In this document: piece by piece, positions 2,007-28,489 of the stretch | Numbering within the stretch: position 1 is the stretch's first letter | Layout of the letters: each line of letters starts with the position of its first letter | Source: an uncultured Acidobacteriota bacterium | Lineage (GTDB): Bacteria > Acidobacteriota > Blastocatellia > RBC074 | Direction of reading: 5' to 3' | Assembly (NCBI GenBank): GCA_903862855.1 | Contig: CAIOZW010000287.1 | Coordinates: 1 to 33,503, forward strand | Length of the DNA stretch: 33,503 bases | Notes under the pieces: generated by a model | The model's input: only the letters and a program-made list of their open reading frames with translations | The model's database searches: none | What the model was told of the DNA's origin: nothing | Position numbers and translations under genes: made by a program

Positions 2007-2624
2007 TCAAGACACAGATAAAGCAAGATCCTCCGCCCAATCGAGACATCGAAGCATACCAGGCTCAACCTCACGGTAACGCCACCCGCTCTCCGGGCAG
2101 ATCATGACCCCTTCTGAGTCTGGGCTGGTCAGGCGGTGACCGTGCCGACTCACCCACCCGCGGCGCCGGGCTGGCACCCCAAGCATGAGAGCGTAATCTG
2201 GTACATCACCACGAACCACCGCACCAGCTCCGATGAGCGCATATCGACCGACCGTTGCTCCACAGACGATTGTCGCATTTGCTCCGATGCTTGCCCCACG
2301 TCGAACGAGGGTTCTGGTATAGAGGTGGCGGCGGTTGATCTGCGAGCGCGGATTGACAACATTGGTGAAGACACAGGAGGGCCCACAGAAGACATCATCC
2401 TCCAGTTCAACTCCCGTATAGACCGAGACATTGTTCTGGATCTTGACATTACTTCCGATCACCACGTCAGCAGCGATAAAGACATTCTGTCCAAGAATAC
2501 AACCCGCCCCAAGCCGTGCACCCGCTGAGACGTGGCAGAAGTGCCAGATCTTTGTTCCAGGTCCGATCTCTGCGGGCTCATCTACAATTGCCGTTTGGTG
2601 TGAGAACCATTGCCTCTCTGTCAT
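2007..2624 (-). CDS. wbpD: WbpD/WlbB-type sugar N-acetyltransferase (left-handed beta-helix)
   Basis: The 205-residue protein is built of hexapeptide repeats of the LbH acyltransferase fold. It reads very like WbpD/WlbB, the acetyl-CoA-dependent 3-N-acetyltransferases that make UDP-2,3-diacetamido-2,3-dideoxy-D-glucuronate for O-antigen. Recognisable stretches are [72 protein letters not shown] and [18 protein letters not shown]. About 45 C-terminal residues extend past the usual end and include a CP(x)SG-like stretch (ICPESGWRY), as in some family members. A GGAGGT about 7 bases upstream supports the start. The partner enzymes WbpA, WbpB and WbpE are not in the window, so the exact amino sugar is inferred. 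Confidence 0.88.
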
Positions 2625-2808
2625 TCAGGAAACCTCCGCAATAGACTATAAATGGTCTTGAAATCGAGTGATCAAAAGCAGATCAATCAGCAAACTGTTC
2701 ATCTGGCATCCATTAAACCAGGGCGAGTTTCCGGGGAATTGTGAAAATTATTCAACAATCGAACAATTATCAGCAGATTCAACCCGGTTTATGTTGCTGG
2801 CAAGAATA

Positions 2809-3429
2809 TCAACGCAGATGAACCCGGGGATCAGGAGGCTCAAAAAGGAGCCGCTCGACCATCCCACAGATCAGATGTTCGATGGCGAGATGAGTCTCCT
2901 GAATATGCATTGTCGAAGAATGGGGGACGCGAATAACCAGATCCGCAGTTACGCCCAGAAGTCCAGCCTGGCCGGTGAGAGCGATGGTTCGCAGTCCAAG
3001 GGGAGCGGCGGTTTCGAGCGCCCTGATGACATTGACCGACCCCCCGCTGGTCGTAATCCCCAGCAGAACGTCACCTGGTCTGCCCAGTGCCTCAACCTGC
3101 CGCGAGAAGACTCCATCAAAACCAAAATCGTTCGCATAGGCGGTGAGGATCGACGAATCGGTCGTCAGGGCGATTGCCGGCAATCCTGGCCGTGGATAAT
3201 CCTTGGTGAGCAGGCTGACCAGCTCGGCCGCGAGATGCTGGCAATCGGCGGCACTCCCGCCATTGCCACAGAGCAGCAGCTTTCCACCCTCACGAAATGA
3301 CGACGCAATCATTCTCGCTGCAGCGATAATCGTCTGACACTCCTGCTCGAAAGTCGCGAGCTTGACCGATGAACTTGTGCGAATGTGATCCTCGACAAAT
3401 CTTTCAAGAGAGACTGGCTGACCCGACAT
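2809..3429 (-). CDS. gmhA: Sedoheptulose-7-phosphate isomerase
   Basis: This 206-residue SIS-domain protein converts sedoheptulose 7-phosphate to D-glycero-D-manno-heptose 7-phosphate, the first step of ADP-heptose synthesis for LPS core. Visible family features are LLLCGNGGSAADCQHLAAEL (residues 51-70, with the catalytic-type His65 and Glu69), TTDSSILTAYANDFGFD, LLGITTSGGS (phosphate-binding Ser/Thr loop) and MHIQETHLAIEH (Gln177 and His185). The start at 3429 is chosen over an in-frame ATG 66 bases upstream because GGAGGG sits 5-6 bases before it and the length then matches the family. It overlaps the 3' end of gmhB by 26 bases, which implies translational coupling. Confidence 0.95.
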   Translation of the reverse strand: MSGQPVSLERFVEDHIRTSSSVKLATFEQECQTIIAAARMIASSFREGGKLLLCGNGGSAADCQHLAAELVSLLTKDYPRPGLPAIALTTDSSILTAYANDFGFDGVFSRQVEALGRPGDVLLGITTSGGSVNVIRALETAAPLGLRTIALTGQAGLLGVTADLVIRVPHSSTMHIQETHLAIEHLICGMVERLLFEPPDPRVHLR

Positions 3430-3997
3430 TTTGACCCTCCTCTGTGATGATTTGACCGATGATCCGGGCCGCTCCAAGCAGGTCATCAACGACATAGTCT
3501 GGACCAGGATGACATTCCTGCTCAGTGACCGTACCGTACCCGGTGCGGGTCAGAATCGTGACCGCTCCGATATTACGACCAAACTGGAGATCGGAGAGCT
3601 TGTCCCCGATCATAAAAGCGCTTTGCAGGTCAAAATCGTGCTCTCTTGCTGCCTGAGCCCCAAGTCCGGGGGCGGGCTTGCGACATTGGCAATTGTCCTC
3701 GGGGATGTGTGGACAGACATAGTATCCATCGAGGGTGACACCTGCGGCAAGAAGAAGATCATCGAGACGTGCATTGATCTTATCCAGGGTATGCGGATCA
3801 AAGTAGCCTCGTCCGATCCCTGACTGGTTGGTCACCACCAGCAGTCCCAATCCGGCGGCACTCATCATCCGCAGTCCAGCCGCCGCCCCGGGAAGAAGCT
3901 CAACCTGATGCGGATCGGCAAGATAGTGCTTTTCGACGATGATCGTTCCGTCACGATCAAGAATCGCAAAGCGGCGCGGCGTCTTCTTCTGCTTCAT
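3404..3997 (-). CDS. gmhB: D-glycero-D-manno-heptose-1,7-bisphosphate 7-phosphatase
   Basis: This 197-residue HAD-superfamily histidinol-phosphatase-like enzyme removes the 7-phosphate from heptose 1,7-bisphosphate in the ADP-heptose pathway. DRDGT at residues 14-18 supplies the nucleophile Asp14 and acid/base Asp16. TNQSGIGRGYF is the second HAD motif. Cys95, His97, Cys103 and Cys105 are the four zinc ligands characteristic of GmhB, followed by RKPAPG and MIGDKLSDL. It is first in the gmhB-gmhA unit and a plausible promoter lies 70-100 bases upstream. The kinase/adenylyltransferase HldE needed to complete the pathway is not in the window. Confidence 0.95.
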   Translation of the reverse strand: MKQKKTPRRFAILDRDGTIIVEKHYLADPHQVELLPGAAAGLRMMSAAGLGLLVVTNQSGIGRGYFDPHTLDKINARLDDLLLAAGVTLDGYYVCPHIPEDNCQCRKPAPGLGAQAAREHDFDLQSAFMIGDKLSDLQFGRNIGAVTILTRTGYGTVTEQECHPGPDYVVDDLLGAARIIGQIITEEGQNVGSASLS

Positions 3998-19117: not shown

Positions 19118-19744
19118 ATGATATCCGGAATCTTATTGGCGGCCGGCGAATCTTCGCGAATGCAGGGAGCATTCAAGCCGCTTCTCAAGTGGGGCAAGCG
19201 GACGGTGATCGGCGAGTGCGTCCACCAGTTGCGCAATTCAAAACTGGACGACATCTTCGTCGTGCTTGGCCATCGTGAAGCCGAGATACGCCCTGGTCTG
19301 GCCGGGACAGGAGTACAGTTCGCGATCAATCGTGACTATCGGCGTGGAATGCTCACCTCGATCAAGACCGGACTGGCGATGCTCGGTCCGAATTCAGACG
19401 CGTTTATGCTGGCATTGGTCGACCAGCCGATGATTGGCACGGCCGTCATCAATACTCTCATCGAGGCGTTCGAGAAGGGTGAGAAGGGAATTGTCGTTCC
19501 GACGTGGGAAGGACGCTGGGGCCATCCGGTCATTGTCAGTACGGCATATATCGATGCCATTATGCAGATCGATGACGATTCACCTGAAGGAATGCGTGGA
19601 TTTCTGCAGGCGAATCGCGGTGATCTGCTTGAAGTTCCAGTCGAGACCAATACGATTGTCGAAGATATCGATCTGCCGGAAGACTATGAGCGACTGAGCG
19701 GCCAGGTCAAGCCAATCTACGAATTCCACAAGTGGCATCCCTGA
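19118..19744 (+). CDS. MocA/MobA-like nucleotidyltransferase (molybdenum-cofactor type)
   Basis: A 208-residue single-domain NTP-transferase fold. It opens with the nucleotide-binding signature GILLAAGESSRMQG then KPLLKWGKRTVI, and continues with the metal-site LALVDQPMI and GRWGHPVIV, all usual for MocA-type cytidylyltransferases that make the molybdopterin cytosine dinucleotide cofactor of xanthine-dehydrogenase-type enzymes. No such enzyme is in the window. The molybdoenzyme present, MsrP, uses plain molybdopterin, so a link between them is not expected. GGGAGG lies about 13 bases before the ATG. Related nucleotidyltransferases with other sugar or polyol substrates cannot be excluded. Confidence 0.8.
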   Translation: MISGILLAAGESSRMQGAFKPLLKWGKRTVIGECVHQLRNSKLDDIFVVLGHREAEIRPGLAGTGVQFAINRDYRRGMLTSIKTGLAMLGPNSDAFMLALVDQPMIGTAVINTLIEAFEKGEKGIVVPTWEGRWGHPVIVSTAYIDAIMQIDDDSPEGMRGFLQANRGDLLEVPVETNTIVEDIDLPEDYERLSGQVKPIYEFHKWHP

Positions 19745-19765
19745 AACCACCACACTTCCACCATC

Positions 19766-19805
19766 CCCGGTCGGCCAGGAGACTCGACCACTCTGGCCGA
19801 CCGGG
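19766..19805 (+). terminator. Perfect 13-bp GC-rich hairpin after the MocA-like gene
   Basis: CCCGGTCGGCCAG and CTGGCCGACCGGG pair perfectly around a 14-base loop, starting 21 bases after the stop. No T-tract follows. A very stable RNA end structure. Confidence 0.6.
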
Positions 19806-19815
19806 CGATCAAGAC

Positions 19816-19824
19816 TTATCCACA
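19816..19824 (+). promoter_or_regulatory. Lone consensus DnaA box
   Basis: TTATCCACA matches the bacterial DnaA box at 9 of 9 positions. There is only one copy and no origin genes nearby, so it is at most a titration or regulatory site; a 9-mer also occurs by chance in a window this long with fair probability. Confidence 0.3.
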
Positions 19825-19988
19825 GAATCGTTAGATCGGTGACATACCTCCATCTTGCCTCCCGTCCGGGTGGTTGCTACCATCAAAAACTTGTTTATTG
19901 ACTGCCGTTCAGCGACCGGAGAAGGTTCTGATCGATTGAATGGTTCGATTCGTCATCATTGCGGAAGAGATACAGGAAAAAGATCATC

Positions 19989-21443
19989 ATGGCCTATTCA
20001 GATCTGCGCGATTTTATCAAGGTTCTCGAAAAGAACAGGGAGTTGAAGAGGATCACGATGCCGGTCTCGAGTGATCAGGAGATCACTGAGATCACCGATC
20101 GGGTGAGCAAGGCGGGGGGACCGGCGCTGCTCTTTGAGAATGTCGATGGAGGACGCATCCCGGTGTTGATCAATGCACTGGGAAGCAAGCGCCGTATGGA
20201 GTTGGCGCTGGAGGTCGACAATGTCGAGGATGTTGCGGCACGCCTGACCGATTGGCTCGATTTCAAATCCCCCGAAGGACTGCTGGAAAAGGTGAAGATG
20301 CTTCCCAAACTGGCAGAGCTTGGAAAGTATTTTCCGCGTGAGGTCAAATCAGGTCCATGCCAGGAGGTGATTCTGAGAGAGGGCGAGTTCAACCTGCTCG
20401 ACCTGCCGGTTCTGAAGTGCTGGGAGGCGGATGGTGGGCGTTTCATCACCTTCCCGATGGTCTTCACGAAAAATCCGCGTACCGGCAAGCGTAACTGTGG
20501 AATGTACCGGATGCAGGTCTATGACGAGAAGACGACCGGTATGCACTGGCAGATCCACAAGCATGGCGCCGCACACCAGCGCGATCTCGAGAAGCAAGGG
20601 TCAGCCCGGATGGAGGTGGCAGTGGCCATCGGTGCCGAGCCGATCACCAACTTTGCCGCAACGCTGCCACTGCCAGATGATCTCGACGAGATGATCTTTG
20701 CCAGTTTTATTCGCGAGAAGCCGATCGAGATGGTCAAGTGTGTCTCGGCTGATCTGGAGGTACCGGCGACGGCCGAGATCATACTTGAAGGATATGTCGA
20801 CCCGGCTGAGCGGCGGATCGAGGGTCCGTTCGGAGACCATACCGGTTTCTACACACTCGAGGATTCCTATCCGGTCTTTCACGTCACAACGGTGACCCAC
20901 CGCAAGAACCCGATCTACCAGACGACGATCGTCGGTCGACCTCCGATGGAGGACTGCTACATGGGATGGGCGATCACCCGGATCACCATGCCGGTTTTGA
21001 AGAGGCAGTTCCCGGAGATTGTCGACATGAGTCTTCCATTTGAGGGGGTCTTTCACAACCTGATGCTGGTCTCGATCCGCAAGCAGTATCCCGGACACGC
21101 ACGGAAGATCATGAATGCGATCTGGGGACTTGGTCAGGCGATGTTCACCAAGTGCATCATTGTCGTCGATGACGATGTCGACGTGCAGAACCCGAGCGAG
21201 GTCGCCTGGAAGGTGCTCAACAACATCGATCCGGAACGGGACATCCAGTTCACGATGGGCCCGGTCGATGTTCTCGACCACGCCTCACGTCAACCGGGTT
21301 ATGGATCGAAGATGGGCATTGACGGTACACGTAAATGGAAGAACGAAGGCTTCGACCGGCGCTGGCCACGCGAGAACCAGACCAGCGCCGAGATCAAGGA
21401 GCTCGTCGATTCGAAGTGGAAGAAGCTTGGTCTGCCGGGCTAA
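19989..21443 (+). CDS. ubiD: UbiD-family prenylated-FMN-dependent decarboxylase
   Basis: The 484-residue enzyme has the full length of UbiD, the reversible decarboxylase that acts on 4-hydroxy-3-polyprenylbenzoate or related aromatic acids in quinone synthesis. It starts MAYSDLRDFIKVLEKN, as family members do; a TTG 30 bases upstream is less likely. Characteristic stretches are PRTGKRNCGMYRMQVYD (about residues 164-180, cofactor and metal binding), MHWQIHKHG, IGAEPITNFAATLPLP and EGPFGDHTGFYTLED, with Glu278 and Asp283 in the acidic catalytic pocket. The flavin prenyltransferase UbiX is not in the window. In a menaquinone-based organism it may act in the futalosine pathway or on other aromatic acids. 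The stop overlaps that of the convergent cupin gene. Confidence 0.92.
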   Translation: MAYSDLRDFIKVLEKNRELKRITMPVSSDQEITEITDRVSKAGGPALLFENVDGGRIPVLINALGSKRRMELALEVDNVEDVAARLTDWLDFKSPEGLLEKVKMLPKLAELGKYFPREVKSGPCQEVILREGEFNLLDLPVLKCWEADGGRFITFPMVFTKNPRTGKRNCGMYRMQVYDEKTTGMHWQIHKHGAAHQRDLEKQGSARMEVAVAIGAEPITNFAATLPLPDDLDEMIFASFIREKPIEMVKCVSADLEVPATAEIILEGYVDPAERRIEGPFGDHTGFYTLEDSYPVFHVTTVTHRKNPIYQTTIVGRPPMEDCYMGWAITRITMPVLKRQFPEIVDMSLPFEGVFHNLMLVSIRKQYPGHARKIMNAIWGLGQAMFTKCIIVVDDDVDVQNPSEVAWKVLNNIDPERDIQFTMGPVDVLDHASRQPGYGSKMGIDGTRKWKNEGFDRRWPRENQTSAEIKELVDSKWKKLGLPG

Positions 21444-23250: not shown

Positions 23251-23793
23251 TTGAAAGTTAACTACACACAATATGTAATTGAAACGAACCGTCTCCGATT
23301 GCGTCGAATGACCATCAATGACGCCCGATTCGTCCTTGCGCTGCTTAATGAGCCATCATTTCTGCAGAACATTGGCGATAAAAAGGTCAGGTCGCTTGAA
23401 GACGCACGGTCTTATCTGATCCAGGGACCGATGGCAAGCTATCGTCGGCATGGATTTGGGCTCTATGCGGTTGAGAGAAAAGATTCGAAGGCCGTCATGG
23501 GGATCTGCGGGCTGGTCAAACGAGACGGCCTGGAGGATACCGACCTTGGATTTGCCTTTCTGCCGCCATACTGGGGAAAGGGGTATGCCGTCGAGGCAGC
23601 CTCAGCTGTGATGAAAGAGGCGCGGGAAGAGATCGGTCTGCGTAAAGTAGTCGCGATCACTGTCCCCGAGAATCACCGCTCGATCCGGGTGCTTGAAAAG
23701 GTCGGGCTTCGCTTTCAGAAGATGATCAGACTCTCTGAAGAGGGGGCAGCCTTGCGACTCTATTCAAGAGCGCTCAGCAACGTAATTTCTTGA
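23251..23793 (+). CDS. GNAT-family N-acetyltransferase (RimJ/RimL-like)
   Basis: This 180-residue protein has the GNAT fold used to acetylate N-terminal amines or small molecules with acetyl-CoA. The opening IETNRLRLRRMTINDA is the usual RimJ/RimL-like beginning. FLPPYWGKGYAVEAASAVMK carries the acetyl-CoA pyrophosphate loop (motif A; Gly-Lys-Gly-Tyr), and VPENHRSIRVLEKVGLRF is motif B. The start appears to be TTG at 23251, because no ATG or GTG lies in frame upstream and the first internal ATG would delete the first strand. No clear ribosome site is seen. Its stop overlaps the TTG start of the next gene in the bases TTGA, so the two are probably translationally coupled. Confidence 0.85.
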   Translation: MKVNYTQYVIETNRLRLRRMTINDARFVLALLNEPSFLQNIGDKKVRSLEDARSYLIQGPMASYRRHGFGLYAVERKDSKAVMGICGLVKRDGLEDTDLGFAFLPPYWGKGYAVEAASAVMKEAREEIGLRKVVAITVPENHRSIRVLEKVGLRFQKMIRLSEEGAALRLYSRALSNVIS

Positions 23794-25646
23794 CCATCAG
23801 TCTGCAAAAAACTTTTTTCGGGATTCTGACGCTCATCCTGGCCTTTCCTGGCGATCAGTTGAGAGCGCAGAGTCCCGGGACGAGTTCTTGGTCCTGGCAG
23901 AATCCACTTCCCCAGGGAAATCCACTCTATTCAATCAAGTTCAGCACTGAGCGATATGGTGTAGCCATTGGCCGCGACGGAGCCATGGTGCGCACGACTG
24001 ATGGAGGCCGGAGCTGGCGCAGTGTAGGGCCGATCGTCTCGACACCGCTCTATGGTCTCTCTGTGCGAGATCGGCAGCTCTGGGCTGTCGGCGCGCGAGG
24101 GCAGGTACTCCATTCGCGAGATCGTGGTGAGCATTGGGAATCTCAGACGAGTGGAACTCGCGCCCATCTTTTCGGGATCTGGGTTGGCGCTGACGGAGAG
24201 GGATGGGCAGTTGGAGTGGAAGGGAGCCTGATCAAGGCCAGAAATGGTGGAGAAGTCTGGGAGAATGTTGAGAGTCCGACAAGAAACCATCTGCGGGGTA
24301 TCAGCTTCCTCGATCGGTTCCGTGGAGTGGCCATTGGAGATGCGGGCACGGTTCTGGTGAGCGAGGACGGTGGCCGGACCTGGAAGTTACGACCATTCGG
24401 ACGATCCATTGACCTGCTGACGATCTGGCCGTTTGATGACGGTAGATTGGTCGTTACAGGAGCTGAGGGTACGGTCTGGCTGAGTGGAGACCACGGAAAA
24501 AATTGGAGCCTGGTTGAGCTGGGTACGACAGATCGTTTAACGGCGGTTCATTTCATCGACAATCGTCATGGCTGGGTAGGCTCTGCGGGTGGAGGCTTAT
24601 GGCAAACCAATGATGGAGGCCGGACCTGGCAGCGTCTCCGCGATCTGAAGGAGCAGGGAATACTCTCCATATATTTCACTGCCACTCAGCAAGGTTGGGT
24701 ATGCGGTGAAGCTGGAATCATTCTTTCGACCCGCAATGGAGGGCAGACCTGGGAAGTGGAGACCGAGGGGGAGCGGAACCACCTTAATGACATCCACTTT
24801 GTCAGTCGGGAACTTGGCTGGAACGTCGGGGCGCGGGGAACGATACTGCAAACCTCGGATGGTGGACGAAGCTGGAGGAGACAGGAATCGGCACTGCGAG
24901 ACGAGTTTCTCGCCGTCCATTTCATCGATGCTCGTCACGGATGGATTGCTGGTGAGAACGGAGCCTTGCTGCGGACGATCGATGGCGGGCTGACCTGGGA
25001 GCCACGAGAGATGCCGCGAGGGATGGAGACTCCGGTCGACTTTTACGATCTCTGGTTTAACGATGAGAACCGGGGATGGCTGATCGGCGCTGACGGACAG
25101 ATCAGTGAGACCAGAGACGGTGCCATCACCTGGATGACAAAACCCGTTCCGGGGCACCCTTCGTTGCGGAAGGTCTTCTTTTTTGACGATCAGCATGGCT
25201 GGATGACAGGTGAGGGTGGGGCAATCCTGGCCACGATCGATGGTGGAGAGACCTGGAAAATACAGGAGAGTGGAACACGGGAGTGGCTGCACGACATCAC
25301 TTTTGTCGATCGGCGCAGAGGATGGGTTGTGGGTGACAAGGGGCTGATCCTGCATACTGCTGATGGTGGGGAGACCTGGCTGGTGCAGATCAGCGGAGTT
25401 CCAACCCGGCTGACGGGCGTCGCGGCCAGATCGGCCCGCATGATCTATGCCGTCGGGCAGAATGGCGTAGTTCTCCATAGTGACGATGGAGGGAGAGAGT
25501 GGGAGCGGGAAGTCTCTGGCACATCGACAATGCTGACATCAGTAACCTTTGCTGACGACGAGGGCTGGACAGTTGGGCGAGACGGTGTCATCCTTCGCCA
25601 TACCGGCCCTGGAGCCGGCAAACTTCGTACAATATTGAATCGGTAG
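23790..25646 (+). CDS. Exported beta-propeller protein of Ycf48/BNR-like repeats
   Basis: A 618-residue protein with a signal peptide (hydrophobic stretch FFGILTLILAF, cleavage near LRAQ). The rest is a repeat array of about 42 residues per unit, with the pattern (T/S)xDGGxxW, then (S)GTxxxL, (F)xDxxxGWxVGxxGxIL. I count 13 full DGG-type turns and a last partial one, about 14 units in all, enough for two seven-bladed propellers. Ycf48/HCF136 is a single seven-bladed propeller needed for photosystem II assembly, but bacterial relatives outside phototrophs are exported proteins of unknown role. It probably acts in the periplasm or at the surface in protein binding. The TTG start overlaps the GNAT stop by 4 bases; no ATG fits the signal peptide. 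Confidence 0.85.
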   Translation: MTISLQKTFFGILTLILAFPGDQLRAQSPGTSSWSWQNPLPQGNPLYSIKFSTERYGVAIGRDGAMVRTTDGGRSWRSVGPIVSTPLYGLSVRDRQLWAVGARGQVLHSRDRGEHWESQTSGTRAHLFGIWVGADGEGWAVGVEGSLIKARNGGEVWENVESPTRNHLRGISFLDRFRGVAIGDAGTVLVSEDGGRTWKLRPFGRSIDLLTIWPFDDGRLVVTGAEGTVWLSGDHGKNWSLVELGTTDRLTAVHFIDNRHGWVGSAGGGLWQTNDGGRTWQRLRDLKEQGILSIYFTATQQGWVCGEAGIILSTRNGGQTWEVETEGERNHLNDIHFVSRELGWNVGARGTILQTSDGGRSWRRQESALRDEFLAVHFIDARHGWIAGENGALLRTIDGGLTWEPREMPRGMETPVDFYDLWFNDENRGWLIGADGQISETRDGAITWMTKPVPGHPSLRKVFFFDDQHGWMTGEGGAILATIDGGETWKIQESGTREWLHDITFVDRRRGWVVGDKGLILHTADGGETWLVQISGVPTRLTGVAARSARMIYAVGQNGVVLHSDDGGREWEREVSGTSTMLTSVTFADDEGWTVGRDGVILRHTGPGAGKLRTILNR

Positions 25647-25733: not shown

Positions 25734-27155
25734 ATGCAAATGAATGATAATCGGCTCTCGCGGGCACGCGAGAAGTTTATCGCCACTTTCGGTCACGGCG
25801 AGATATTCGTTCTCCGCGCCCCGGCCCGGATCAATATTCTCGGCGAGCATGTCGACTATGTTTCGTACCTGCCGACGGCATCGCTTCCCTTTGGCAGTCA
25901 CGAACACGAGATGCTGATGCTCTACCGACCGACGATCGGTAAGCGGGTTCGCGGCATCTCAAGCCACTCTGCCTATGAACCATTCGAGTTTCCATTGACC
26001 GAAGAGTTTGGAGAGGGTGAATGGGCAACCCAGGTCTTCAACCGGCCGGCTCCGGCACCGCACTGGAGCAATTACGTCCGCGGAGCAGTCGCCTTTGCGC
26101 AATGGCGCCATCCACAAAGTATCGTCACCGGGATGGATCTCATGATCGACTCGACGATTCCGCCAGGGGGTGGCTCATCATCCTCATCGGCAATCGTTGT
26201 CCTGGCCGGCGCCGCGATCCGGCACGTCAATCGGATCGAATACGAACTGTGTGATCTGGCCTGGGAGTCATCCCAGGCTGAGTGGTACCTTGGAACACGC
26301 GGCGGGGCGCTCGATCATGCGACGATCTGTCTCAGCCAGCGGGATCACGTCCTGCTGATGAACCATTTTGAGCGTAAAAGTGAGCCGATTCCATTATCAG
26401 GTCGGGACTGGCGCTGGGTAACATTCTTCTCGCACCCGGCCGATAAGGGGCGGGAGGTGATGCTTGAGTACAATGAACGCGCTGCCGTCTCGCGAATCCT
26501 CATCCCGACACTGATGGAGCGGTCTGCGGCGATCGAGGAAGAGATCGAACGGCTTCCTGATCACCTCACCCTTGCTGAATTCAAACGCAGGTTTCCGGCT
26601 CAATTCAATGACTGTCAGGCGGCCTTTCCTGCCCTGATCAGGGAGCGAATGGATCTGCCACTCCGCATCCGGAATCGTGCGCTCCACCATCTGGGTGAGT
26701 CGCAACGCGTTGCCGAGGCGGTGCGCCTGCTAATGGAGCTGCAGCAGCCGACCGACAAACCGTCTTATCAATCAGGAGATGAGCGGGATCCTCGGACTGA
26801 ACATTTGCCGCAAGACGTAACTGACAGAGCAGTAGCACAGGCCATGCACAGTCTGGGTCGACTGATCGATCGATCACACCAGAGCCTCTGCGATCTCTAT
26901 GAGGTAAACAATTCCGAGGTTGACCACCTGGTCGACTCGATCACGAGGGATCCCGGAATGATCGAAGGCCGTCGCCTCATGGGTGGAGGGTTCGGTGGCA
27001 ATGTACTTGTTCTCTGCCGCGCCGCGAATGTTCAACCCCTGATCGATCAGGTCTCGGTCGATTATTATGCTCCGCGCGGAAGAGATCCACGCGCTGAAGG
27101 CGCGATCATGATCTCTACCCCTGGCGATGGTCTGACGCTCGTGGTCGGGCAATAG
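25734..27155 (+). CDS. GHMP kinase of the galactokinase family, divergent
   Basis: The 473-residue protein has all three GHMP motifs: [14 protein letters not shown] (residues 29-42), [11 protein letters not shown] (143-153) and GGGFGGN near the C-terminus. Arg32, Glu38, His39 and Asp41 match the sugar-binding site of galactokinase, and Asp194 in GALDH matches its catalytic Asp in Gx[12 protein letters not shown] and [11 protein letters not shown] are further GalK signatures. It differs from ordinary GalK in being about 80 residues longer, including a polar insertion near residues 335-360, and in altered signature residues ([16 protein letters not shown]). It phosphorylates C1 of a hexose or, given the ExuT-like transporter 44 bases downstream, perhaps a hexuronate. 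That substrate is inferred. No galT or galE is adjacent. Confidence 0.83.
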
Positions 27156-27199
27156 ACAGTAAACGCCGCAGTTTTATCAAAAGAGTAAGGAGTAAACCC

Positions 27200-28489
27200 A
27201 TGTCGAAACCGATACGATCACTCCGCTGGTGGATTGGCGGGATGCTCTTTGCCTCGACGGTCATCAACTATATCGACCGGCAAACCCTCTCTACACTCGC
27301 CCCCTTCCTGAAGAAGGAGTACGAGTGGACAAACACGGATTATGCACTGCTCGTTGTCGCCTTCCGGATCGCCTACTCTTTTGGACAGACCATCTTTGGC
27401 CGAATGATGGACCGGATAGGAACACTGCGCGGGCTGACATATTCGGTCATTGCCTATTCGATCGCCTCGATGCTGACCTCATTTGCGCGTGGGCTGCACA
27501 GCTTTGCCTTTTTCCGGTTTCTGCTCGGGGCGGGAGAGTCAGCAAACTGGCCGGCCGCGACCAAGGCCGTCTCTGAATGGTTTCCACGGCGTGAACGGGG
27601 AGTGGCGACAGCGCTCTTTGACAGTGGTTCATCGATTGGCGGAGCAGTTGCTCCATTCCTGATCATCCCGATCTATCAGCATTATGGTTGGCGTCCAGCA
27701 TTTATCATTCCCGGACTGCTTGGTTTCATCTGGATCATGGTCTGGCGAAAAATCGGTGGCTCTCCTGACACCCATCCACGCATCACACCTGAGGAGCGCG
27801 AGATGATCCTTCGTGACAAGGAAGATTCGGCACCAGAGAGAAAGGCAGGAGTGGTCGGAATGGCACCACGCTGGTCAGAGCTGCTTCGTCTGCCACAGAC
27901 CTGGGGAGTGGTCATAGCACGGTCCTTTACCGACCCGGTCTGGTTCTTCATTACCGACTGGTTCATGATCTACCTTGTCGCGAAGGGTTTCGAAGTGGAG
28001 AACACACTGATCGCCTTCTGGATACCCTTTGTCGCGGCCGATCTTGGAAATTTTGCCGGAGGAGGTATCTCGAGCTGGCTGATCCTCCGTGGCTGGTCGG
28101 TGGAATGGGCACGCAAGTCGGTCATCATCTTCGGCGCAGCTGGAATGCTGCTACTTATTCCGACGCTCTATACATCGCAACTCTTCATGATTGCCGGACT
28201 CTTTGCCATCTCGACATTTGCATACGCGGCCTATTCGACTATGGCCATCGTGCTGGCGACCGATCTGTATGCCGACGAAGCCGTCGCCACCGTAAGCGGT
28301 ATGAGCGGAACCGGGGCTGGAATCGGAACAATTGCTTCGACACTGCTCATCGGCTGGATATCTGATCGATATTCGTTCGGGCCGATCCTCATTGCCGCGA
28401 GCCTGATACCCTTCATCGGCATGATCTTGGTAATGAGACTTGTCCGGAATCCGGAGAGTGACGTCAGTTCCCTGTTGAAACGAATCTGA
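27200..28489 (+). CDS. MFS transporter of the anion:cation symporter family (ExuT-like)
   Basis: A 429-residue carrier with about 12 membrane helices. The first helix ends [11 protein letters not shown], the usual opening of hexuronate transporters. The loop signature [12 protein letters not shown] follows helix 2, and [29 protein letters not shown] is strongly ExuT/GudP-like, as is [14 protein letters not shown]. The central cytoplasmic loop (about 195-225) is charged, as normal. The family imports hexuronates, glucarate or similar organic anions with protons. AAGGAG lies about 9 bases before the ATG, and the gap of 44 bases to the GalK-like gene indicates an operon. The stop lies 9 bases from the convergent msrQ stop. 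Confidence 0.85.

Follow-up and report, generated by a model that had tools for sequence, protein, structure and literature searches.

Introduction

Several described systems resemble, each in part, a pair of genes in a 33,503-nucleotide stretch of DNA (contig CAIOZW010000287.1 of assembly GCA_903862855.1; hereafter the window) from an uncultured Acidobacteriota bacterium of the class Blastocatellia, which encode a galactokinase-like sugar kinase and a carrier of the major facilitator superfamily (MFS). Canonical galactokinase (GalK, model TIGR00131) shares with the window kinase the GHMP motifs and the Arg, Glu, His, Asp, Asp and Tyr residues of the sugar site, but the window kinase scores 154.7 bits against this equivalog model (cut-off 226.65) and falls into a separate clade. 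Human N-acetylgalactosamine (GalNAc) kinase GALK2 (structure 2a2c) likewise has galactokinase-type sugar-site residues, except for Phe at the position of Tyr236, and can be likened to the window kinase and its relatives, here called B-type kinases, in the GTxGGxMD form of its base motif, where B-type kinases have Leu or Met. It is a eukaryotic enzyme, and the B-type kinases differ from it by the motif APARIN, a loop after GEHxDY that is four residues longer, extra stretches and an identity of 27%. ExuT and DgoT belong, like the window carrier, to the MFS anion symporter group and share the aligned Asp-Arg, Arg and Glu residues (with Thr for Asp in ExuT), whereas the window carrier is only 26–29% identical to them and represents a set of its own, with members in 16 of 162 class genomes.

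In bacteria, the phosphorylation of N-acetylhexosamines at C1 is known from bifidobacterial NahK, which acts in a sugar-use cluster and which is described as not structurally similar to galactokinase (PMC8106489); the window kinase, unlike NahK, is a GHMP protein. A GHMP sugar-1-kinase and a nucleotidyltransferase are joined in one chain in Bacteroides FKP (L-fucokinase/GDP-fucose pyrophosphorylase), in a zebrafish glucuronokinase/putative pyrophosphorylase and in relatives of the window kinase from a sister family (f7). The transferase is N-terminal in FKP and the zebrafish enzyme (PMC11982464, PMC3938481), whereas that of f7 is C-terminal, GlmU-like and altered in its metal site, and the window protein is unfused.

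The window genes are best read as encoding a GALK2-like C1 kinase and a carrier of a salvage route that leads from a free sugar through a sugar-1-phosphate to a nucleotide sugar, a reading to which we assign a probability of about 0.5. No account of this kinase family was found in the literature searched, which comprised open-licence papers.

Linkage of the kinase and carrier genes

The window makes up one of the 517 contigs of a 4.6-Mb assembly (G000; genomes, contigs, loci and families are labelled G, C, L and f). The open reading frames of kinase and carrier were found where the sequence-only reading had placed them, on the same strand and 44 bases apart. The features of the locus are as follows.

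25734–27155, forward strand: B-type GHMP-family anomeric sugar kinase, 473 aa, ATG start (open reading frame, domain, profile and tree evidence)
25842–25859, forward strand: GEHVDY sugar-binding motif, kinase residues 37–42; Glu38 corresponds to Glu43 and Asp41 to Asp46 of human GALK1 (alignment; GALK1 roles assumed)
26160–26192, forward strand: ATP loop of the kinase, residues 143–153 (PF00288 match and alignment)
26304–26318, forward strand: GALDH, kinase residues 191–195; Asp194 corresponds to GALK1 Asp186, presumed catalytic base (alignment; role assumed)
26469–26471, forward strand: kinase Tyr246, corresponding to GALK1 Tyr236, presumed sugar contact (alignment; role assumed)
26739–26837, forward strand: 33-residue kinase insert, residues 336–368, for the most part missing from the relatives of the window protein (alignment)
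26973–26999, forward strand: third GHMP motif, RLMGGGFGG, kinase residues 414–422 (alignment)
27187–27192, forward strand: AAGGAG, resembling a ribosome-binding site, 5' of the carrier gene (sequence)
27200–28489, forward strand: MFS carrier of the anion:cation symporter (ExuT/DgoT) group, 429 aa, ATG start (open reading frame, domain and profile evidence)
27275–27280, forward strand: carrier Asp26-Arg27, invariant in 10 orthologues and aligned with the Asp-Arg of DgoT transmembrane helix 1 (TM1) (alignment)
27515–27538, forward strand: carrier Arg106 and Glu113, both invariant in 10 orthologues and aligned with the TM4 Arg and Glu of DgoT (alignment)

Kinase genes were searched with a 9-row profile over 162 genomes of the class (threshold E ≤ 1e-40) and were found in 18, nine belonging to the window's family (f1) and nine to f7. 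Among 396 genomes sampled evenly across the phylum, only five matched at 1e-30: three from f1, one from another class (G456) and one from G303. Carriers were scored among the best candidate stretches of each class genome (10 at most). Orthologues were present in 16 genomes, with at least 496 bits compared with 416 bits for the next score, and were carried by 15 of the 18 kinase genomes but only 1 of the 144 others, this exception (G004) being a partial match. The resulting co-occurrence (both genes 15, kinase only 3, carrier only 1, neither 143) gave a Fisher p of 2.4e-17, without correction for kinship. With G456 included, 19 kinase loci were available; the contigs of G002, G056, G059 and G456 end too early for the position of the carrier to be read, and 11 of the 15 readable loci have the carrier gene immediately 3' of the kinase gene. 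Adjacency and class-wide co-occurrence, which holds even where the genes are unlinked, therefore show a functional link between kinase and carrier, and the pairing first noticed in the window extends to its relatives.

Two observations weigh against this link and would suit accidental neighbours that serve different pathways. In four of the 15 readable loci (G003, G006, G007 and G010) the carrier is not adjacent to the kinase, although in G003, G006 and G010 it is present elsewhere in the genome; and within f1 alone (7 genomes with both genes, 2 with the kinase only, 1 with the carrier only and 1 with neither) the association is not significant (p = 0.49). Chance proximity is nevertheless very improbable, given adjacency across two families, co-presence in genomes where the genes lie apart and the gap that sets off the carrier orthologues (at least 496 versus at most 416 bits).

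Relationship of the kinase to galactokinases

By its domains, the window kinase is a member of the GHMP kinase superfamily, galactokinase group. It matched GHMP_kinases_N (PF00288; 36.7 bits, cut-off 22.3) and GalKase_gal_bdg (PF10509; 35.3 bits, cut-off 23.1), fell narrowly below the cut-off for GHMP_kinases_C (PF08544; 20.1 bits, cut-off 21) and contains the three GHMP motifs. The signatures GEHVDY and GALDH, which had been described as altered, are present, the exchange of Val and Ile being minor (human GALK2 has GEHIDY). The surplus of about 80 residues is likewise real (473 aa compared with 388 aa for the genome's canonical GalK), with longer extra stretches at residues 93–106, 263–273, 293–305 and 336–368. 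The closest solved structure is that of human GALK2 (2a2c; E 2.4e-27 with phmmer, 2.4e-44 with a profile), followed by the galactokinase structure 1pie (9.8e-22 and 1.4e-39); the entry AbGHMP (9ulx) matched weakly, and no glucuronokinase model or chain was among the matches listed in the Pfam, curated-model and PDB scans, a comparison that included no plant or fish kinase sequence. A structure prediction from five sequences was poor (pLDDT 57, pTM 0.61). A scan of genome contigs with the kinase returned four relatives only, all of them metagenome-assembled genomes of Acidobacteria.

A maximum-likelihood tree of 38 rows was calculated, leaving out the kinases of G056 and G122 (the latter represented only by its end). 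It contained a B-type clade of 17 rows (support 100/100), joined to GALK2 and the G303 protein by a branch with support 99/96 and separated from the canonical GalKs. Topologies in which the B-type kinases were constrained to group with the canonical GalKs or with a third, galT-linked kinase type were rejected by approximately unbiased (AU) tests (p-AU 0.010 and 0.011, respectively), the groups having been named after the tree was seen. As regards GalK, the phylogenetic comparison that the sequence-only reading had proposed thus places the window kinase outside the canonical clade, and its view that this is no ordinary GalK holds, considering the sub-threshold TIGR00131 score, the separate clade and the canonical GalK (388 aa, G000:C337) encoded on another contig of the genome.

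The affinity to GALK2 is weakened by three points. The identity of the window kinase to GALK2 (27% over 401 positions) is no higher than that to GalKs (30% to the GalK of its own genome), the branch leading to GALK2 is long (1.86), and a tree without the third kinase type and G456 resolved into a three-way unrooted split, in which the canonical GalKs still formed their own clade (99/95).

The G303 protein (L101:1489–2700) is a 403-aa GALK2-like kinase from Acidobacteriota; among solved structures, human GALK2 matched it best (E 1.1e-60, compared with 3.8e-53 for galactokinases). The third GHMP kinase type of the window's order carries GGIADY, with neither Glu nor His, a motif resembling that of plant L-arabinokinase. 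It was found in G003:C49, G004:C61, G005:C115, G009:C20 and G008:C220 (L130, L132, L134, L138 and L127). In four of these five genomes, galT is no more than 1.3 kb away; in G008 the two genes are on different contigs.

Fusion proteins and mutases in related genomes

In eight of the nine f7 genomes, the kinase continues in frame into a domain of about 290 residues, the ninth contig (G056) ending at the end of the kinase, and the same layout was found in G456. The fused domain is GlmU-like: the best GlmU models gave 67.9 bits (G123) and 87.1 bits (G120), all below cut-off, and the nearest solved GlmU is 1g95 (E 2.4e-10). All nine f1 kinases are unfused, the window protein being the kinase alone. 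The fullest operon (G123) comprises, in this order, the fusion, the carrier, mutase 1, mutase 2, a ROK kinase and a DeoR regulator, and its two mutases exceed the TIGR03990 cut-off of 439 bits (451.8 and 485.3 bits). Pairs of GlmM-type mutases are also located 3' of the carrier in G009, G120, G121, G122 and G142; G009 belongs to f1 and has the order kinase, carrier, mutase 1, mutase 2. In two further f1 genomes the genes are arranged differently, with the carrier and two mutases together about 28 kb from the kinase (G010) or two mutases directly after the kinase (G006). A salvage route is suggested because the f7 kinase is fused to a GlmU-like domain and, where the operon is fullest, accompanied by the carrier, mutases, ROK kinase and DeoR regulator.

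Several findings speak against such a route or against its extension to the window. The f7 members G124 and G143 have the carrier, ROK and DeoR genes but no mutases beside the carrier. Carrier and kinase are present in the window genome and in G001, which belongs to the same genus, but neither genome has a mutase that reaches the TIGR03990 cut-off or a close free-standing version of the fused transferase domain. Candidates for a separate partner transferase, sought in the 11 genomes of the window's order, showed only 27–35% identity, and 11 of the 14 were GlmU-sized and GlmU-like. Moreover, the metal site of the fused domain is altered: the Asp of GDxP is replaced by Thr in eight of nine sequences and by Val in one, and the Asn of GxN by Lys in all nine, while the nucleoside triphosphate loop is kept (e.g. 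L057:8647–9519). In GlmU, this Asp and Asn presumably act as metal ligands, and they are conserved in all 14 control rows from the window's order (11 GlmU-type and three shorter transferases). Since the Asp is lost and Lys stands for Asn, the activity of the fused domain is unproven. In eukaryotic UAP1, a lysine replaces the second metal of GlmU (PMC8386105), and by analogy the fused domain may therefore still work despite its changed site.

Mutase 1 differs from its sister enzymes in two motifs. In all 10 distinct copies (L022:11619–12965, L020:1100–2464, L109:3187–4533 and L110:11215–12567, and those in L052, L057, L058, L059, L060 and L089), TASHNP is changed to TAGHNP with loss of the phosphoserine, and the metal loop reads DADGER in nine and DANGER in one, as opposed to DxDADR in sister enzymes. 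It usually adjoins an intact sister mutase; in mutase 2, all 12 distinct copies retain the Ser.

Other genes were observed around these loci. Beside the f7 operon (L057:2134–6519, and at the same place in L052 and L058) lies a divergent set coding for an amidohydrolase, a 535-aa protein that matched nothing in Pfam or the PDB and a DUF4832 protein. In f1, the kinase is preceded by an IolO/psicose-epimerase-like TIM barrel of the AP_endonuc_2 family in G002, G003 and G006 and by a different AP_endonuc_2 TIM barrel in G007–G010 (genes at L023:6725–7606, L020:3861–4895 and L024:2900–3781; L022:7567–8454, L021, L025 and L026).

Sugar site and substrate of the kinase

Human GALK1 presumably contacts galactose through Arg37, Glu43, His44, Asp46, Asp186 and Tyr236, and the window kinase has the same residues at the six aligned positions (Arg32, Glu38, His39, Asp41, Asp194 and Tyr246). 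The Glu is taken here to be the ligand of the C6 hydroxyl, and Asp and Tyr to contact O3 and O4. The Glu is kept in 16 of the 17 readable B-type kinases, that of the window included, the exception being G456, which has GGHIDY with Gly for Glu and has lost the Tyr as well. Judging from the six kept residues, this Glu among them, the window kinase seems to act on a sugar whose C6 hydroxyl is free.

The sequence-only reading had instead favoured a kinase that phosphorylates a uronic acid (galacturonate or glucuronate) at C1, in a salvage route like that of plants and fed by a hexuronate carrier. This proposal did not hold up well and appears unlikely, although some evidence agrees with it. The carrier is of the ExuT/DgoT group and retains its charged residues, the most distant relative of the kinase (G456) lacks the Glu, and the combination of kinase and nucleotidyltransferase in f7 resembles, with reversed domain order, the zebrafish glucuronokinase/putative pyrophosphorylase (PMC3938481). 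The f7 partners, however, are GlmU- and GlmM-like, and the scans described above listed no glucuronokinase among their matches. Plant galacturonokinase, as we assume, has Ala in place of the Glu that binds the C6 hydroxyl (no source for this was found in the literature searched), whereas Glu38 is present in the window kinase. Finally, uronates already have their usual first enzyme, because the window genome encodes the uronate isomerase UxaC (257.4 bits, cut-off 25), which is present in nine of the 11 order genomes. In the window genome, another carrier of this group, 43–44% identical to the window carrier over the part compared, is encoded 6.6 kb from uxaC.

Galactose itself is covered, because each of the 11 order genomes encodes a canonical GalK that scores above the cut-off. 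This argues against a second galactokinase, that is, an altered paralogue with the job of GalK, as do the separate clade and the association with a carrier group and a GlmU-like fusion that are not galactose genes. The window genome also yielded no match to the galT model TIGR00209 at E 1e-10, in agreement with the earlier remark that galT is missing (galE was not searched for genome-wide), and matches were obtained in five of the 11 order genomes. The six sugar-site residues do match those of galactokinase, and human GALK2 accepts galactose, too, at high concentration; even so, a role as a spare galactokinase is improbable.

Carrier and its cargo

The carrier was identified as a member of MFS_1 (188 bits), and its best curated model was TIGR00893 (226.7 bits, below the cut-off of 395). 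It is 29% identical to E. coli ExuT, 28% to GarP and 26% to DgoT, the last of which is also its best solved relative (6e9n; E 3.8e-40). Its earlier description as ExuT-like is appropriate at the level of the ExuT/DgoT group. Asp26, Arg27, Arg106 and Glu113 are invariant in the 10 orthologues and coincide with charged residues of DgoT, among which the TM1 Arg and the TM4 Arg and Glu are assumed here to have functional roles.

The retention of these residues favours an anionic cargo. This counts against GalNAc or galactose as the substrate of the pair, both of which are neutral. The kinase might accordingly act on an anionic sugar other than a uronate, with a free C6 hydroxyl and a carboxyl, sulfate or phosphate group elsewhere on the ring, such as an N-acetylmuramate (MurNAc)-like or sulfated GalNAc-like compound. 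An anionic substrate is conceivable because the carrier keeps the Asp-Arg, Arg and Glu of DgoT-type acid-sugar symporters; one of this kind would reconcile the anion-type carrier with the galactokinase-type sugar site and the GlmU- and GlmM-like partners, and the known salvage of MurNAc by AmgK and then MurU follows the same logic of kinase and then transferase. The kept Asp and Tyr, in contrast, which we take to contact O3 and O4, fit a galacto- rather than a muramyl-configured sugar, and we regard the idea as tentative.

Neighbouring genes

The kinase gene is preceded in the window by a gene for a YCF48-type repeat protein (23790–25646; PF14870, 254 bits), a counterpart of which (L023:4865–6700, 42% identity) precedes the TIM barrel and kinase genes of G003. 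MsrQ and MsrP are encoded 3' of the carrier in G000 and G001. At 2007–3997, the window contains GmhA- and GmhB-like genes of the heptose pathway (below equivalog cut-offs) and a NeuD-like acetyltransferase gene. A heptose route was considered and rejected, because 22 kb separate these genes from the kinase gene and the kinase matches included no heptokinase model. At 19118–21443, a gene for a MocA-like nucleotidyltransferase (below cut-offs) is followed by one whose product, a UbiD-type menaquinone decarboxylase, exceeds the cut-off of TIGR03701. The MocA-like gene (19118–19744) was rejected as the missing transferase, since it matches transferases of the molybdenum-cofactor type, below their cut-offs.

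Proposed route

What the data show is the pairing of the two genes and their co-occurrence, the fusion, the clade and the kept residues. For the preferred reading, a salvage route with a GALK2-like C1 kinase and its carrier, we infer the substrate, the direction of transport and the onward reaction as follows. The carrier would import the sugar or a conjugate of it, and the kinase would transfer a phosphate from ATP to the C1 position of a hexose or hexosamine that has the galacto configuration and still carries its C6 hydroxyl, GalNAc or a close relative being the first guess. The sugar-1-phosphate would then be converted to a nucleotide sugar by a nucleotidyltransferase, in f7 probably the domain fused to the kinase. 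A general GlmU-like enzyme would be needed for this step in the window organism, because no fused or close free-standing copy was found there. The GlmM-type mutases of the fuller operons would connect the sugar-1-phosphate to the sugar-6-phosphate.

Discussion

A bolder version of this route, which we put forward only as speculation, is a bacterial counterpart of eukaryotic sugar-1-kinase salvage. A galacto-type sugar, possibly anionic, would be imported and receive a phosphate at C1 from the GALK2-like kinase; in one family, a GlmU-like domain of the same chain, with lysine for the second metal and in this comparable to UAP1, would then activate it. Two GlmM-type mutases would support the pathway, the serine-less one perhaps as a regulatory or subunit partner of the other.

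If the preferred reading is true, a GALK2-like clade with its own carrier, and with a transferase fusion in a sister family, would constitute a new bacterial way from a free sugar to an activated sugar, and the f7 fusion would be a one-chain enzyme for nucleotide-sugar synthesis. The altered metal site of the fused domain and the serine-less mutase raise two clear biochemical questions.

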